64,000 bases of DNA from Dehalococcoidia bacterium (GTDB taxonomy: Bacteria; Chloroflexota; Dehalococcoidia; Lucifugimonadales; Australimonadaceae). The stretch lies in the NCBI GenBank assembly GCA_022449765.1, contig JAKUPZ010000007.1:26872-90871 (forward strand), read 5' to 3'. The notes below the pieces were generated by a model. The model saw only the letters and a program-made list of their open reading frames with translations, was not told the DNA's origin and searched no databases. How positions within the stretch are numbered: the stretch's first letter is position 1; every line of letters starts with the position of its first letter. Position numbers and translations under genes: made by a program. Below are positions 6,377 through 63,329 of the stretch, piece by piece.

Positions 6377-7741
6377 ATGGACAAGAATGCATTTCGCAGT
6401 ATACCTAGTATAGACAACCTTTTGTCAGATTCTAGAGTAATCGACCTTTTAGGGTTGCTTGAGCGTGAGTTTCTCGTACAAGTAATAAGAGAGATTACAG
6501 ACAACACCCGCGAAGAAATACAAAAAGGAAAAACTCCGCCAAATCGAAATGAATTGATCCAGATAGTCGTAGATACAGTCAATCGTGAAATGGAGCAATG
6601 GCCTTCACCAGTAATAAACGCTACAGGGGTTGTCTTACATACGAATATGGGTAGGGCTCCATTATCTGAGGATGCTCTGATTTCAGCCAAGGTAGCGTCA
6701 GAAGATTACAGTGATCTTGAATTGGATCTTCGGGATGGTAAACGTGGTTCTAGGTACTCTGAAATTTCTAATTTATTGAGACGATTGACTGGGTGTGAGG
6801 ATGCGATTGTAGTGAATAACAATGCGTCCGCGATGTTTTTAGGTCTCGCTGCAATCGCCCGAGGTAAAGAAGTAATTGTATCTCGTGGCGAGGCTAGTGA
6901 AATAGGCGGTGGTTTTCGCATCCCCGACGTTCTTGTGCAGAGTGGTGCAAAATTAGTCGAGGTAGGGACTGTCAATCGGACCTATGCGGAAGATTATCAA
7001 TTAGCAATTACATCTAAAACTGCAGCTATCCTCGTGGTGCACAGGTCTAATTTCCAAGTCTTGGGCTTTACACATGAACCGCAGTTATCCGATATTTCTC
7101 AAGTCGGTAGGGACAATAATATCCCAGTACTCCATGACCTTGGCTCCGGTGCTCTAATAGATACTGCTGCGTACGGATTGGGGCATGAGCCTATGCCGCA
7201 GGAGAGCTTGGCTGATGGCTCAGATCTTGTATTTTTCTCTGGTGACAAATTGCTTGGAGGTCCCCAGTCTGGAATCGTAGTAGGTAATAAGAACCTTATC
7301 TCTAAATTAAAAGCACATCCTTTAGCGCGCGCATTGAGGCCGGAAAAATTAACATTGGCAGCTTTGCATCAGACTCTTCTTCATTACTTACAAGGTGAAG
7401 CGACCCAGAAAATTCCTGTATGGAAAATGATCTCAATGCCTTTAGAAGAACTGGACGAAAGATCAAGAATTGCTGCCGAAGCTATCGGGCCTCGTGCCAA
7501 AGTAGTGGACGGATTTTCCGCTGTGGGTGGAGGAAGTTTGCCTACTGATCAATTACCTTCCAAATTAATTTCATTGAGTCCATCAGAGCATGTAAAAATT
7601 GAAAAAACAGCCGAAAAAATCAGAAAAAACACACCTCATATTATTGCCAGAATTGAAGATGGGAATTTGATTTTCGATTTTCGTACGGTTATACCAGAAA
7701 ACGATAAGGAAATTATAGAAGCTATTAAGCGGGTTCTTTAA
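6377..7741 (+). CDS. selA: L-seryl-tRNA(Sec) selenium transferase SelA
   Basis: SelA is the PLP enzyme that converts Ser-tRNA(Sec) to Sec-tRNA(Sec) using selenophosphate. The 454-residue length is normal. Family hallmarks are present: NATGVVLHTNMGRAPL at 81-96, the glycine-rich EIGGGFRIPD at 175-184, HDLGSG at 253-258 and the PLP lysine K291 in FFSGDKLLGGPQ. No selB, selD or tRNA-Sec gene lies beside it, which is unusual since selA and selB are often adjacent. Its presence matters for the in-frame TGA in the DsbA-like gene at 62648-63286. The stop overlaps the stop of the convergent MFS gene by a few bases. Confidence 0.95.
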   Translation: MDKNAFRSIPSIDNLLSDSRVIDLLGLLEREFLVQVIREITDNTREEIQKGKTPPNRNELIQIVVDTVNREMEQWPSPVINATGVVLHTNMGRAPLSEDALISAKVASEDYSDLELDLRDGKRGSRYSEISNLLRRLTGCEDAIVVNNNASAMFLGLAAIARGKEVIVSRGEASEIGGGFRIPDVLVQSGAKLVEVGTVNRTYAEDYQLAITSKTAAILVVHRSNFQVLGFTHEPQLSDISQVGRDNNIPVLHDLGSGALIDTAAYGLGHEPMPQESLADGSDLVFFSGDKLLGGPQSGIVVGNKNLISKLKAHPLARALRPEKLTLAALHQTLLHYLQGEATQKIPVWKMISMPLEELDERSRIAAEAIGPRAKVVDGFSAVGGGSLPTDQLPSKLISLSPSEHVKIEKTAEKIRKNTPHIIARIEDGNLIFDFRTVIPENDKEIIEAIKRVL

Positions 7742-33638: not shown

Positions 33639-33904
33639 GCCGTGCTAGACGGGGAGTTAGCGGTGCCCTGCACCCGAAAGCCGCTTAGCGGGGTTGAATT
33701 CCTACCTTGAGGGTTAAGCCTGACACCTCTAGTTTGGGAACGGATATTGAGAGCTTGGCCCTGCGCGACAAAGTCCTGTGAACCGCGTCAGATCTGGAAA
33801 GAAGCAGCGCTAAACAGTGCCTTTGAGTGCCGCAGTGAAGCCTGGCTTGAGTTCGAACCCTATAGCTATGTGGAAGTTACTGATTCGAATGGCAGGTGCA
33901 CGGC
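33639..33904 (+). ncRNA. ffs: Signal recognition particle RNA, long (Alu-domain) form
   Basis: About 266 nt. The ends pair (GCCGTGC with GCACGGC). The 5' part, from GTGCTAGACGGGGAGTTAGC to the GTGCCCTG segment, matches the Alu domain of Bacillus-type SRP RNA, and the 3' part ends GGTGCACGG as in that class. Domain IV is at 33787-33808: GTCAGATCT-GGAA-AGAAGCAGC, with the GGAA tetraloop closed by TCT/AGA. Compared with the usual form, C52-G57 has become U-A (compensated), while G49 has become A in the Ffh-binding symmetric loop. ftsY at 60896 encodes the receptor. Confidence 0.93.
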
Positions 33905-57305: not shown

Positions 57306-60300
57306 TTAATCCAGCTTATACATCAACAAATCAGTTCCTTCAAAAACCACACTACCAAATTCTTTGAATTTTTCCTTACCTTTTGTACCGTAGATTTCAA
57401 GCTCGCTTTTACTGATGACTACGTAATCAATCCCATACTTAGAAATTAGAATTTTCGCAGCAGAGGGGTCAGTGGTAGTGTAAATTTCACGTATGTCATC
57501 CTGCCGTTCTTCAAGGAGAGAATGATTGGTTCGCCACTGTTGTTCGTGCCCCTCCCACCCTAGGACCGTAGGTCTACCTGTGGCTGAGGCTACTCTTCCC
57601 AAGCGCGGGTCCCAATCGTTGCAGCCGGATTGGCTGGCTGTACAGGGCACTAATGACCCCTGGAGTACGATAGAATTTCGATTAGTATGTTGATTGACCC
57701 ATTTGATTAATTCGTATTCTTCAGGTGCAGTCTTACTAACGTACGATAAGCCATTGAGCGTGAAATAATCATGATTTTGAGTGCGGGTAGAGATACCAGC
57801 AAATGAGTAATAACTTAGCCCTCCAAATATAACTACTAGTACAAGGAGCCAAGCAGTTAGCCCAGTTCGTCCTGTTAGTGTGCGTTTGTCCCATTTTGTG
57901 GATACATACCAAAGTCCAACTCCTCCAATGACAGAAAGTAATATCCACGATTGATAATAAAGCTTGAATACAGTATTAAATCTTTTTAATTCGCCTCCAA
58001 AAATGTCTACAACATGGAATAATTCTGCTCCCATAATTAACGAGATTGATATGGAAAAAATCAGGAAAATTGGGACAAAACCGTTCCAGCGAGTTAATGC
58101 TTCTCGACCAAAACGACCATGCCTCATATGTTCACTGTCTTTATGTGCAAGGGACCATGCAGAATAAAACCCGATTGCCATTAGTATGGCAATCGGCAAT
58201 ACTACGAGGAGACGATCTATTGCTAGCAATTCACCTCCAAGTCCTCTTTCATTACTTATAATCCCATTCCATATAAGTCCCCCAATAATCACCAGACTAC
58301 CGACAATGAATGTGAAACGAGGATTATAGGCAAACAGAGCTTCATCAGCTCGAGGCAGTCGATAGCCTATTTGATGCAAGCCAAAAAGTAGCAGAATTAC
58401 AGTAAATAGAGGGATACCGTATATAGGTTGTAACCAGAGCATTATGGGAGCTAGTGATGCTACTAAAATGACCCCTAATCTTATTGGACTCCAGGTTTCT
58501 CGACTGAGGGAATGCCGAAGGAGCAATACGAACATTGGTAATATTAAAAAAGCAGAAATGCCCCAGATCAAAAAAAGATGTAAAGGTCTTGTAAGTAAAT
58601 CGCTTAATGGTGCAATCCCTTTCGCCGAACTTTCAAAATTCATTAAAAATGGCGAGCTAACAACGTAGCTTGAAAATAGTAATAACCCTATAGCCGAAAG
58701 TGCTCTTGAAAGCCTCCATGGTCCGCCAATTTTCCCAGCAGGGGCCCATTTATCTAATGACCTTTGGAAAAAATATACTGCGCCTTGGCCTTGTCCAGGC
58801 GCACCTGCAGAAGCATATCCATTCGCAATTGCTACGCTTGTACCCAAGGTTGCATTGGTACTTGTATCACTTGCAGATAGCTCAGCATGCGCACTCCAAA
58901 AACCATTTTTAGATAACTCATATACGAAAAGTTTCCCTGATCTAGAAGATGGATTACTTTCATTATTAGCGCCTACGACGATAAATGTGTTATCAATAGC
59001 TACAGATTCACCAAACGATTCTGAAGGCTTTGATGGGTATAAAATTTGACTTACTACCCAATTAGTTTTTTGCTTTTTAAGCACTGCAACAGAACCAATG
59101 CCAGCAACAACTACGTGATCGTCGTTCATCGCAATGCTGCCACCTAATTGCCTGATACCCATTTCGGAAGAGCTAAATTGCTGAGAAAGGCTCCATCGTG
59201 TGCGAGCCATGCGGTAAATTCGTAGCACTCCGCTAGATGGCGTAGTAAGACCAACAGCAAGGTAATTATTATGCACTGACACTTTTACGGCCTGTTCAGA
59301 ATTATTAGTTTCGATAGGAAAACTTTCGAATATTACCCAGCCTTTTTCTGTTTCATTAAATAGATAAACCTTTTCTTCCGAACCAACCGCAATTACGCCT
59401 GAATCGGCAGATACTGAACACCCGAATTTGGTTGCTTTGCTATTTTGCGAAGGCCTTAGAGTGGCCTTGTGGATCCATTTTTCTTTTGACTTTTTGTAGA
59501 CCCTTACTATCCCAGTTTTGCTTGCTTCAGAACAGCCAACTGCAATAAGGCTCTCACTGATGGCTAGGGCGTCGCCAAAGCCTGAATGTGTACCAAGCTC
59601 CTCTGCTGTAAGTTTCTGGTTAAATTTCCACCCTTTTTCAGAAAAATTGAAGATTCTCACACAGGGCATAGGGGAATTATTTTGGGGCCCAGTAGTGGAA
59701 CTAATTAGTAATGAATTCTCGTTCATTACTATGGCCTTACCCAACTGAAGTCGCCTTTCATTCCTAGCCGCATTAAGGAGTATTGAACTTGCAATGAGAG
59801 CAAGGGCCACCGGAAAATCCCATAGATTCGTCACTATTAATGAACCGAGACTGATTGAGGTTATAAGCAAGAGTGGCCACAGGGATTTAAATGCACTTAA
59901 ATGCAGCAAACCTTGCTGAAGGTATATTTGTATCGATAATGAGGTAGCTAATAATAAAAATGCTAATGACATCAAATGAGGATGCATATCACCCAGCAAA
60001 AAACTAAATGCTGGAAACTCGGTTATTGCTCCAGGTATTGCTCTTGAAGCTCGCCACCACCACCATGCCGAGTCCGTAGGGAACCAATTATTAGACGGCT
60101 CTGATTGAGTGAGGCCTGCAATTGCTATCGATGACCAAAAATTAGAATCCCCCCCACCAGATGCTCGAAACAGCTCAAGTACTCCTACAAGATTACTTGC
60201 GAGTAGCGCTAGGAAAACTGTTGTGATGCCTGCAAATATTCCGGATTCCCGCGATCCCCTACAAAGCAAAACTAAATTGTACGTAAGTCCAAATGCTGTT

Positions 60301-60878
60301 ACTGCGGTCATTGCAGCGAACATGGCCAGCCCCAGATTATAGGCGACCCATGTTTCAATCCCTGTAAGTAAAGTAATAGAACCTACAAAAACATAGCCGA
60401 GGTAATAGTATGAAACATGTTCGCCAGAAAGCCAGGAATCAATGGGTGGAAAATGTTCACTTGCAACCACTGAGCTTAGGAACATTAGATCCATTGGCTG
60501 CTCTGTGTGGGATATGTCTGGAATCGATGCTCGAAGCAGTGCCATTCCACAGAAAATGGTAATGAATAAGAGTTCAATGGAAATAATCAGACTTAGGTTA
60601 GCCTTGGTAGTACTCCATATTTCCTTGTAATCCTTTCCTGCTGCAATCCAAGATACAAAAGCGAGAATTGCTATTGCAATTAAAACAGCTAAGCGAGAAA
60701 CGGTAACAATTTGAGAAAGGCCTATCAGCCAAACGCTGAAGCCTACAATGAGTAGGCCAATGACTTTGGTGAAGGCATAGCCTCTATCGGGCATTCGACT
60801 GAACACCCTAAATGACAGTGGGATACTCATTGCAGATATTAGCTGTAACAATCCCAGCCAGAGGATAGCACTAAGCAT
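57306..60878 (-). CDS. YYYxG (Chlor_Arch_YYY, DUF2298) membrane protein with inserted seven-bladed beta-propeller
   Basis: A 1190-residue protein. Residues 1-370 are polytopic, with YYYLG at 157-161 as the family motif and GDMHPHLMSLAF in a loop. Residues about 378-716 (58731-59747) hold seven FG-GAP-like repeats, each of the type SFGESVAIDNTFIVVGA followed by VYEL and an aromatic edge. Membrane segments resume at about 725 and continue to the C-terminal domain. The insert sits between spans, presumably outside the cell. It lies in the run with Agl23-like and flippase-like genes. Role in glycan assembly is inferred. Confidence 0.87.
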   Translation of the reverse strand: MLSAILWLGLLQLISAMSIPLSFRVFSRMPDRGYAFTKVIGLLIVGFSVWLIGLSQIVTVSRLAVLIAIAILAFVSWIAAGKDYKEIWSTTKANLSLIISIELLFITIFCGMALLRASIPDISHTEQPMDLMFLSSVVASEHFPPIDSWLSGEHVSYYYLGYVFVGSITLLTGIETWVAYNLGLAMFAAMTAVTAFGLTYNLVLLCRGSRESGIFAGITTVFLALLASNLVGVLELFRASGGGDSNFWSSIAIAGLTQSEPSNNWFPTDSAWWWWRASRAIPGAITEFPAFSFLLGDMHPHLMSLAFLLLATSLSIQIYLQQGLLHLSAFKSLWPLLLITSISLGSLIVTNLWDFPVALALIASSILLNAARNERRLQLGKAIVMNENSLLISSTTGPQNNSPMPCVRIFNFSEKGWKFNQKLTAEELGTHSGFGDALAISESLIAVGCSEASKTGIVRVYKKSKEKWIHKATLRPSQNSKATKFGCSVSADSGVIAVGSEEKVYLFNETEKGWVIFESFPIETNNSEQAVKVSVHNNYLAVGLTTPSSGVLRIYRMARTRWSLSQQFSSSEMGIRQLGGSIAMNDDHVVVAGIGSVAVLKKQKTNWVVSQILYPSKPSESFGESVAIDNTFIVVGANNESNPSSRSGKLFVYELSKNGFWSAHAELSASDTSTNATLGTSVAIANGYASAGAPGQGQGAVYFFQRSLDKWAPAGKIGGPWRLSRALSAIGLLLFSSYVVSSPFLMNFESSAKGIAPLSDLLTRPLHLFLIWGISAFLILPMFVLLLRHSLSRETWSPIRLGVILVASLAPIMLWLQPIYGIPLFTVILLLFGLHQIGYRLPRADEALFAYNPRFTFIVGSLVIIGGLIWNGIISNERGLGGELLAIDRLLVVLPIAILMAIGFYSAWSLAHKDSEHMRHGRFGREALTRWNGFVPIFLIFSISISLIMGAELFHVVDIFGGELKRFNTVFKLYYQSWILLSVIGGVGLWYVSTKWDKRTLTGRTGLTAWLLVLVVIFGGLSYYSFAGISTRTQNHDYFTLNGLSYVSKTAPEEYELIKWVNQHTNRNSIVLQGSLVPCTASQSGCNDWDPRLGRVASATGRPTVLGWEGHEQQWRTNHSLLEERQDDIREIYTTTDPSAAKILISKYGIDYVVISKSELEIYGTKGKEKFKEFGSVVFEGTDLLMYKLD

Positions 60879-60895: not shown

Positions 60896-61846
60896 TTAAT
60901 TTTCATCAAATAATCCGTCGATAAAATTGTTTCTATCGAATATAGATAAATCATTCACTTGTTCGCCAGTCCCCACTAAGGCGACTGGAATTCCTAGTTG
61001 ATCATTGATAGCAATAACAATACCGCCTTTTGCCGTACTATCTAATTTAGTTAAAAAGATGGCATTAATGTCTACGATGCGCTGAAAACTTCTAGCTTGT
61101 TCTAATCCATTTTGGCCAGTTGTGGCGTCCAATACGAGTAATATTTGATGAGGAGCATCGGATGAAATTCTTCCAAATACGCGATTTATTTTAGAGAGTT
61201 CATCCATAAGATGATTCTTATTATGCAACCTACCAGCGGTATCATAAATTAATACGTCAGCTTGCCGTGCAATGGCTGCGTTATAGGCATCAAACGCTAT
61301 GGCGCCTGGATCAGAACCTTGCTGATGTGCAACAACGTCTAGGTTTAATCTTTCACCCCATACCTTTAACTGGTCTATAGCCGCTGCTCGGAAAGTATCT
61401 CCTGCCCCTAATGTTATATTCTTCCCCATTCTTTGGTAGTACGCAGCAAGCTTTGCTACGCTGGTGGTTTTGCCAACGCCATTTACACCTACAACCATAA
61501 TGACTAAAGGTTTTGGGCAAGACGGATCTGTGAAAAATTCTTCGAGGTATGGTTCTTGGTACGGATTCATAAGGCATAATAATTCAGATTTTAGTAGCCC
61601 CATGATTTCCATGGAGGTATCGATATTTTGTTTCTGGGCTGAAGTTTTTATTTTTGCAATTAACTTAGCTGTAGTTTCTATTCCCGTGTCGGCAGAAATA
61701 AGTAAATCTTCCAAATCTTGCCATAAAGATTCATCAATTTTAGTGCTTGGCTGAAAAAGGTAAGACAAATTATGGCCCAAATCTTTACGAGTCTTTGATA
61801 GAGCCTTAAAAATATTTTCTTTGCTTTCGAATAATGAAAAAGCCAA
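60896..61846 (-). CDS. ftsY: Signal recognition particle receptor FtsY
   Basis: A 316-residue SRP receptor with only the NG GTPase: GVNGVGKTT (120-128), DTAGR at 202-206, LTKLD and the GVGEQ-like loop near the end. The acidic A domain of the E. coli type is absent, as in many Gram-positive and Chloroflexi proteins. It docks the ribosome-SRP complex at the membrane with the RNA encoded at 33639. It lies between rnc and the YYY gene. Confidence 0.94.
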   Translation of the reverse strand: MAFSLFESKENIFKALSKTRKDLGHNLSYLFQPSTKIDESLWQDLEDLLISADTGIETTAKLIAKIKTSAQKQNIDTSMEIMGLLKSELLCLMNPYQEPYLEEFFTDPSCPKPLVIMVVGVNGVGKTTSVAKLAAYYQRMGKNITLGAGDTFRAAAIDQLKVWGERLNLDVVAHQQGSDPGAIAFDAYNAAIARQADVLIYDTAGRLHNKNHLMDELSKINRVFGRISSDAPHQILLVLDATTGQNGLEQARSFQRIVDINAIFLTKLDSTAKGGIVIAINDQLGIPVALVGTGEQVNDLSIFDRNNFIDGLFDEN

Positions 61847-61923: not shown

Positions 61924-62655
61924 TTATTGGAGTTCTGAATTTTGATTTCTAAGTATCGCTAAGGCGGATTCAGCGGCTTGCTGCTCTGCGGTGCTTTTCT
62001 TAGGAGCAATGCCTTCAGCAACAAATTTGTTAGCTATAAGGATCTGTATTACAAAAAGTTTTGATCGAGAGACTTGTTTTGCATTAACCACCTGATAAAC
62101 CGGAAGGGGTAACCCTTTTTTTTGTAAGAATTCCTGCAGCGCGCTTTTGGGGTCGTTTAATGATTTATTTGAAGCAATTAATTTTATCTGATCATCCAAT
62201 AAATGTAATATGAATTTAGCTGCAGTTTTTTCACCACGATCAAGTAATATTGCACCTACTAAGGATTCAAACACTGCCGCAAGGTTGGAGGGTCTATTGC
62301 GCCCCCCACTTGCTACTTCTCCCTGACCAAGCTGCATATACTTTCCAAGATTTAATGCTTGAGCTAAAGACTGCAAATTAGAACCTCGTACAAGCAAAGC
62401 TCTGGCTTTAGTTAATTGTCCTTCGGGGAAATTGGGGTACCGTTTGTAAGTTTCTTGTGCGACAACCCATCCTAGGAACGAGTCCCCTAAGAATTCGAGT
62501 CTTTCATAACTTCCTAATCTTGATCTTGGCTCTTCGTTTAGGATGGAAGGGTGGCGCATTGCCTGAGCGAGAAGCTCAACGCAATTGAATTTAATCCCTA
62601 ACTTATCTTGCAATTCACTTAAGGAGTGGTTACTTGGAGTGCTGTGATTAATCAA
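61924..62655 (-). CDS. rnc: Ribonuclease III
   Basis: A 243-residue RNase III: the signature ERLEFLGDSFLGWVV at 51-65, the downstream catalytic block AAVFESLVGAILLD, and a C-terminal dsRNA-binding domain (DPKSALQEFLQKKG). It processes rRNA and other double-stranded RNA. It overlaps the 3' end of the DsbA-like gene by eight bases; the ftsY gene follows after a 77-base gap. Confidence 0.94.
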   Translation of the reverse strand: MINHSTPSNHSLSELQDKLGIKFNCVELLAQAMRHPSILNEEPRSRLGSYERLEFLGDSFLGWVVAQETYKRYPNFPEGQLTKARALLVRGSNLQSLAQALNLGKYMQLGQGEVASGGRNRPSNLAAVFESLVGAILLDRGEKTAAKFILHLLDDQIKLIASNKSLNDPKSALQEFLQKKGLPLPVYQVVNAKQVSRSKLFVIQILIANKFVAEGIAPKKSTAEQQAAESALAILRNQNSELQ

Positions 62656-63286
62656 AGACTCCTTTAGGCCATGGAGGCTGCGGCCGCTTTACTTCTCCCA
62701 AGAAAGGCGCACTTTTTAACAGTGTTATTAAAGAGTTGAATGCAGCGAGGGCCTCTTCATTTGTGTTTGGTTTGATCATTTTGACAAATGCAGAACCTCC
62801 CTCTTTGAGAATAAAAGTCGGAGTACCAAAGACGCCAAGGGATTGAGTTGCTTCTATGTGAGAGGCTTTTATTTCTTCTAAAGTAGAACGATCCTCTAAG
62901 TCTTCAGAAAATTTGATGATATCTAGCCCACATTCCTGCGCTATGTTTTTGAGTATGGATTTATCTGAGAGTGATACTCTGTCCACATGACGCGCAGTTA
63001 GTAGTCTTGGAAGGAATTCATTAAGGTACTCTTCACCTTGACGACGTGCGGCTTGTCCAGCGCGTAATCCCCAGAGACTTTCATCTAAATTTTCATCATC
63101 TTCATTCCAGGCTTCGTAATCAGGCCCGATTTTTTGGTTAACTTGCGCTAATGAGAAAGGACGCCATGTAGCCTGTAGGGGAATTTCTCCTCCTAGTGCT
63201 TCTTTTACTTGATTCAGCCAAACCACTGAATTAAATACAAATGGTCACCTAAAATCAAAATATATATCCGCTTTAATGGTTACCAT
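62648..63286 (-). CDS. Selenoprotein: DsbA/FrnE-family thiol oxidoreductase with Sec at the active site
   Basis: Read from the ATG at 63286, preceded by GAGGAGGG, the frame gives 212 residues with one in-frame TGA at codon 14 (63245-63247): IYFDFR-U-PFVF. In DsbA/FrnE proteins this position is the first Cys of the CPxC motif after YFDF. The rest is a complete DsbA-like thioredoxin fold with the cis-proline in GTPTF. A conventional start would be the GTG at 63226, which has no ribosome site and loses the active site. A SECIS-like hairpin follows, and selA is at 6377. The second Cys is replaced by V, so it works with a single selenol. Confidence 0.85.
63212..63235 (-). promoter_or_regulatory. 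Candidate bacterial SECIS hairpin
   Basis: Downstream of the TGA, ATTCAG (63226-63231) pairs perfectly with CTGAAT (63212-63217) around the loop TGGTTTGG, with TTT/AAG extending the stem past one mismatch. The apical GG begins 20 bases after the TGA, within the range of known bacterial SECIS elements. Confidence 0.7.
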
Positions 63287-63329
63287 AAATCCCTCCTCTA
63301 AATTCTAAAGAACTAAAAAACCCTTCGCC

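Follow-up and report, generated by a model that had tools for sequence, protein, structure and literature searches.

We propose, with little doubt, that an in-frame TGA in a Chloroflexota genome is a selenocysteine (Sec) codon and that the gene carrying it encodes a bacterial selenoprotein, a DsbA-like thioredoxin-fold protein of 212 residues with Sec predicted at residue 14. The gene lies on the minus strand at 62648–63286 of the window, the 64 000-nucleotide stretch that we analysed, which comes from a draft genome of 1.6 Mb related to the SAR202/Dehalococcoidia bacteria of the Chloroflexota. The assignment of the full gene draws on a frame with one TGA, a match to PF01323, a set of homologs and an AlphaFold model.

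Read from the ATG at 63286 to position 62648, the frame contains exactly one TGA, at codon 14 (63247–63245), where the predicted Sec falls in the motif D-F-R-U-P-F-V. Upstream of the ATG stands AGAGGAGGG, which includes a Shine–Dalgarno-like GGAGG at 63296–63292 on the minus strand, 5 bases 5′ of the start codon. This arrangement had been described in an earlier sequence-only reading, and the sequence bears it out. The same reading had held that standard gene calling begins at the GTG at 63226 and loses the active site; the mechanical list of open reading frames has precisely this start. Elsewhere in the window TGA is an ordinary stop that ends 11 of the 53 open reading frames, which gives no hint of a reassigned code. 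When the window was scanned for further genes that could be extended through a single upstream TGA, no other convincing case emerged on inspection by eye.

Of 250 genomes in the source organism's order (SAR202, Chloroflexota), 186 encode a homolog, and nearly all the matches listed carry exactly one internal TGA. At codon 14, TGA stands in 101 of 105 distinct sequences and TGC or TGT in four; neither of the other stops, TAA and TAG, occurs there. In the alignment the Cys of these four homologs falls precisely on the TGA position. A phylum-wide search extended the set with Sec and Cys forms from other Chloroflexota families, whose Cys residues fall there too. The TGA is retained in independent genomes, among them the complete genome of Ca. 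Lucifugimonas marina JH1073 (CP046147), which makes a sequencing error at this position very unlikely. The active-site motif D-[FY]-x-U/C-P-[FWY]-V occurs in all 105 sequences with no second conserved Cys. No Cys column other than residue 14 is invariant, and Cys is missing altogether from 74 of the 101 Sec forms. The suggestion, made from the U-P-F-V context, of a mono-selenol protein fits this pattern well, U-P-[FWY]-V being invariant. On a tree of 133 proteins nine changes between Sec and Cys are needed, at least seven of them forced by well-supported branches, which indicates that the two residues have been exchanged many times at codon 14.

Two further features of the family were observed. 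Firstly, genomes G061 and G062 (loci L063 and L077) hold two neighbouring copies of the gene, each with a Sec codon. Secondly, a C-terminal block, KRPQPPWPxG (62660–62689, minus strand; residues 200–209), shows no variation except at position 208 across 19 aligned homologs and falls in the lower-confidence tail of the AlphaFold model.

A bacterial SECIS hairpin core, ATTCAGTGGTTTGGCTGAAT, with apical loop GGUUUG, occupies positions 63212–63231 of the minus strand and, counted from the T of the TGA, starts 16 nt downstream. Its significance was assessed by folding a 27-nt stretch and shuffling synonymous codons within each sequence, a procedure that separates selection on the RNA from constraint on the protein. 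Over 101 Sec homologs the mean energy of the hairpin is −10.0 kcal/mol, compared with −6.0 kcal/mol for the shuffled sequences. The z score is −3.5 for the gene in the window and averages −2.2 over the 101 homologs, with values below −1 in 91 of them. In the four Cys forms, z lies between −0.6 and +1.0 and the hairpin signal is absent. As a positional control, a sliding test of 60 Sec forms gave a mean z of −1.8 at offset 16 and of −0.5 to +0.3 elsewhere. The SECIS-like hairpin reported to follow the TGA is thus stronger than synonymous codon choice would give, and only at this place. Some columns of the stem are compensatory: one pair, for instance, occurs as U-A, G-C and C-G, although other cells there are unpaired. 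By inspection, Sec forms of other Chloroflexota families have a similar hairpin of the GCAGC..GCUGC type and Cys forms are without it.

The machinery for Sec insertion is also encoded. The selenocysteine synthase gene selA, which had been placed in the same window, is found at 6377–7741 on the plus strand (TIGR00474, 537 bits; PF03841, 443 bits). Besides selA, the source genome has selB, selD and a tRNA-Sec with anticodon TCA, the three components by which the sequence-only reading had proposed to check itself; the tRNA was found with both Rfam and ARAGORN, the latter labelling it tRNA-SeC. Across the order, 144 of the listed genomes carry a Sec form, and tRNA-Sec was detected in 121 of these. 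In the other 23 it was not found under strict filters, and these are mostly incomplete drafts, with a few that are 93–96% complete. The four Cys-form genomes of the 105-sequence set still have tRNA-Sec; in G134 and G087, two further genomes of the order with the Cys form, it was not found. The selD gene of the source genome (L042, G000:C3:77799-78722) itself has one in-frame TGA, and its product, the selenophosphate synthetase SelD, is probably a selenoprotein as well.

The protein obtained by reading through the TGA scores 48.2 bits against PF01323 (DSBA; cut-off 25.6), with the match running from residue 7. The AlphaFold model (pLDDT 94, pTM 0.89) places Sec14 between a strand of residues 4–10 and a helix of residues 15–30. 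With a score above the cut-off, a thioredoxin fold with a helical insert and a conserved PT loop, the protein belongs to the DSBA superfamily. Residues Phe153, Gly154, Pro156 and Thr157 are invariant, and the conserved PT at 156–157 is the probable cis-proline loop that faces Sec14 in the DsbA fold.

The closest solved relative by both sequence and fold is DR2335 of Deinococcus radiodurans (PDB entries 7dk9 and 7dka; 9e-27, TM score 0.80), followed by Rv2466c and FrnE. A review presents DR2335 as DsbA-like, with one conserved Cys, and gives neither a function nor experimental data for it (PMC8945050); for this reason no activity can be transferred by homology. That single active-site Cys aligns with Sec14 of the SAR202 protein, which, having one conserved Cys or Sec and no CxxC, falls into the DR2335-like group of single-Cys DsbA proteins. 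The two differ in that DR2335 has Cys rather than Sec, in overall sequence (about 29% identity), in the active-site motif (CPYA versus U/CPxV of the SAR202 family) and in the C-terminal KRPQPPWP block, which they have only partly in common. Rv2466c of Mycobacterium tuberculosis (PF22234) has the same fold and layout, and the SAR202 protein scores 28.7 bits against PF22234 (cut-off 27). Identity is about 20%, and the SAR202 family lacks a second conserved active-site Cys, all 101 Sec forms having UxxV; Rv2466c presumably has this second Cys, in a CxxC motif.

Two named families were considered and rejected. The Rcas_1661 family thioredoxin-like (seleno)lipoprotein model (NF041057) gave 15.7 bits where 190 are needed. 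For the selenoprotein TsoY (NF047643), which has UxxV, the protein has no NCBIfam match, and TsoY is not among the matches of 49 homologs. No NCBIfam model tested names the SAR202 protein above its cut-off.

Our scheme for the enzyme combines parts that computation supports, namely the fold, the position of Sec, the hairpin, the Sec machinery and the absence of a resolving Cys, with parts that we infer, namely Sec insertion itself, the reducing direction, the cytoplasmic site, the substrate and the thiol partner. With the hairpin just downstream as its guide, SelB would bring Sec-tRNA(Sec) to the codon-14 UGA. The product would be the 212-residue DsbA-superfamily protein in which Sec14 heads the first helix of the thioredoxin fold within U-P-[FWY]-V. 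No signal peptide is visible and the product is probably cytoplasmic. Most probably the selenolate would then attack an oxidised or electrophilic substrate, such as a disulfide or a mixed disulfide, and leave a selenenyl-sulfide for an outside thiol to resolve, either a small thiol or a thioredoxin-type protein. We give a role as a mono-selenol reductase roughly an even chance.

The protein could alternatively be a Sec peroxidase, or an enzyme resembling glutathione transferase kappa or HCCA isomerase that acts on small electrophiles, rather than a disulfide reductase. 1-Cys peroxidases and kappa glutathione transferases are likewise built around one reactive residue with no resolving Cys, and the related Rv2466c is a mycothiol-dependent nitroreductase in the Pfam description. 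Glutathione transferase kappa and HCCA isomerase are indeed among the fold matches, but at a TM score of about 0.6 and 12–16% identity these are weaker than the matches to DR2335 or Rv2466c. We regard such a function as a real but lesser possibility.

The sequence-only reading had called the protein DsbA/FrnE-like. The first half of the name stands on the PF01323 match and the fold; the second does not. FrnE (DR_0659) shares the DsbA superfamily and is likewise predicted to be cytoplasmic. In favour of a thiol oxidoreductase of the FrnE subfamily of DsbA proteins, FrnE structures occur among the sequence and fold matches. FrnE proteins, however, have a CP(W/F)C active site and often a C-terminal CxxxxC (PMC8945050), and both motifs are absent from the SAR202 protein. 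The FrnE label fails because the CxxC that defines it is missing, with UxxV in 101 of 101 Sec forms; the matches are also far weaker (4e-8 versus 9e-27 for DR2335), and the closest structure is the single-Cys DR2335. We consider membership of the FrnE subfamily very unlikely.

Least probable of all are two readings of the TGA itself. Standard rules do yield a gene from the GTG at 63226, but that translation really ends at the TGA, or that the TGA is a sequencing error, with this truncated gene as the real one, is scarcely credible given the same TGA in 101 distinct homologs from many assemblies, complete genomes among them, protein sequence conserved on both sides of it with Cys forms aligned, a preceding strand that belongs to the fold and to the DSBA match from residue 7, and a recoding hairpin that follows it. 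Equally improbable is that a changed code or a suppressor tRNA has the UGA read as Trp or Cys, which would open the frame just as well, since UGA terminates 11 of 53 frames in the window, ARAGORN labels the tRNA with the TCA anticodon as tRNA-SeC, the hairpin tracks the TGA and is missing from Cys forms, and the aligned alternative residue is always Cys and never Trp.

The selenoprotein gene is followed on the minus strand by rnc, encoding RNase III (61924–62655; PF14622, PF00636 and PF00035), whose predicted start (TTG) overlaps the 3′ end of the selenoprotein gene, and then by ftsY, encoding the SRP receptor GTPase (60896–61846; PF00448 and PF02881), the next gene in a likely operon. In 74 of 81 SAR202 loci rnc lies directly downstream of the selenoprotein gene on the same strand, and ftsY is present in 42 of the 81 within the 3 kb flank examined. 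In most loci the distance from the selenoprotein stop to the rnc core is nearly constant, at 129–172 nt, and the start of rnc lies near that stop or overlaps it. Among the loci from the phylum-wide search, rnc was not found beside the gene outside the order, and the sole loci with the two genes adjacent were L190 and L191, both from the order. Two other elements of the window were noted. A large bacterial SRP RNA (RF01854, 157.7 bits) is encoded at 33640–33903 on the plus strand, in the same window as ftsY. At 57306–60878 on the minus strand lies a gene for a 1190-residue DUF2298 membrane protein whose DUF2298 region is apparently interrupted midway by inserted FG-GAP repeats.

Given the conserved order of selenoprotein gene, rnc and ftsY, we considered whether Sec decoding at UGA 14 might act as a selenium sensor for rnc. 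When Sec-tRNA is short, ribosomes would stop at codon 14 and the abutting rnc start would lose coupled translation. If this were so, levels of RNase III, and perhaps of FtsY, would follow the selenium supply in SAR202. We think such a role improbable.

A DsbA-like selenoprotein with UxxV has a precedent. The 2008 ocean (GOS) survey in PLoS Genetics lists a selenoprotein 'DsbA 3', assigned to pfam01323 with the motif UxxV, from five reads in three samples and with 72 Cys homologs (PMC2398784); the main text of that survey names no SAR202 or Chloroflexi host. The SAR202 protein is likewise a pfam01323 protein with this unusual UxxV motif, and the source, the ocean, is shared, so that the kind must be regarded as already known from the 'DsbA 3' entry (PMC2398784). 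On the table description, as distinct from the read sequences, 'DsbA 3' is probably the SAR202 family. To those reads the present case adds a complete gene, a host lineage, a test of the hairpin and the gene neighbours. In its main text, a 2026 review has only two PF01323 entries, DsbA-like form 1 (UxxC) and form 2 (DxxUP), and TsoY as the only UxxV protein (PMC13188914). Forms 1 and 2 are also Sec-containing PF01323 proteins, but their Sec motifs differ from the UxxV seen here. A search of titles and abstracts for selenoproteins jointly with SAR202, FrnE or Rv2466c returned nothing on the SAR202 gene.

What is new, then, is the SAR202 host lineage and the prevalence of the family within it, the repeated switching between Sec and Cys, and the conserved place of the gene upstream of rnc. 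A family that is probably represented in the literature consulted by one line in an ocean-survey table (PMC2398784) now has a host. A selenoprotein common to most SAR202 genomes has its active site lost when ordinary gene-finding cuts it short. Because Sec and Cys versions both occur in nature, the family also lends itself to comparison of the two in a single-chalcogen thioredoxin-fold enzyme. The SAR202 Chloroflexota are widespread, mostly uncultured and largely marine, and selenium is now tied to their redox machinery.
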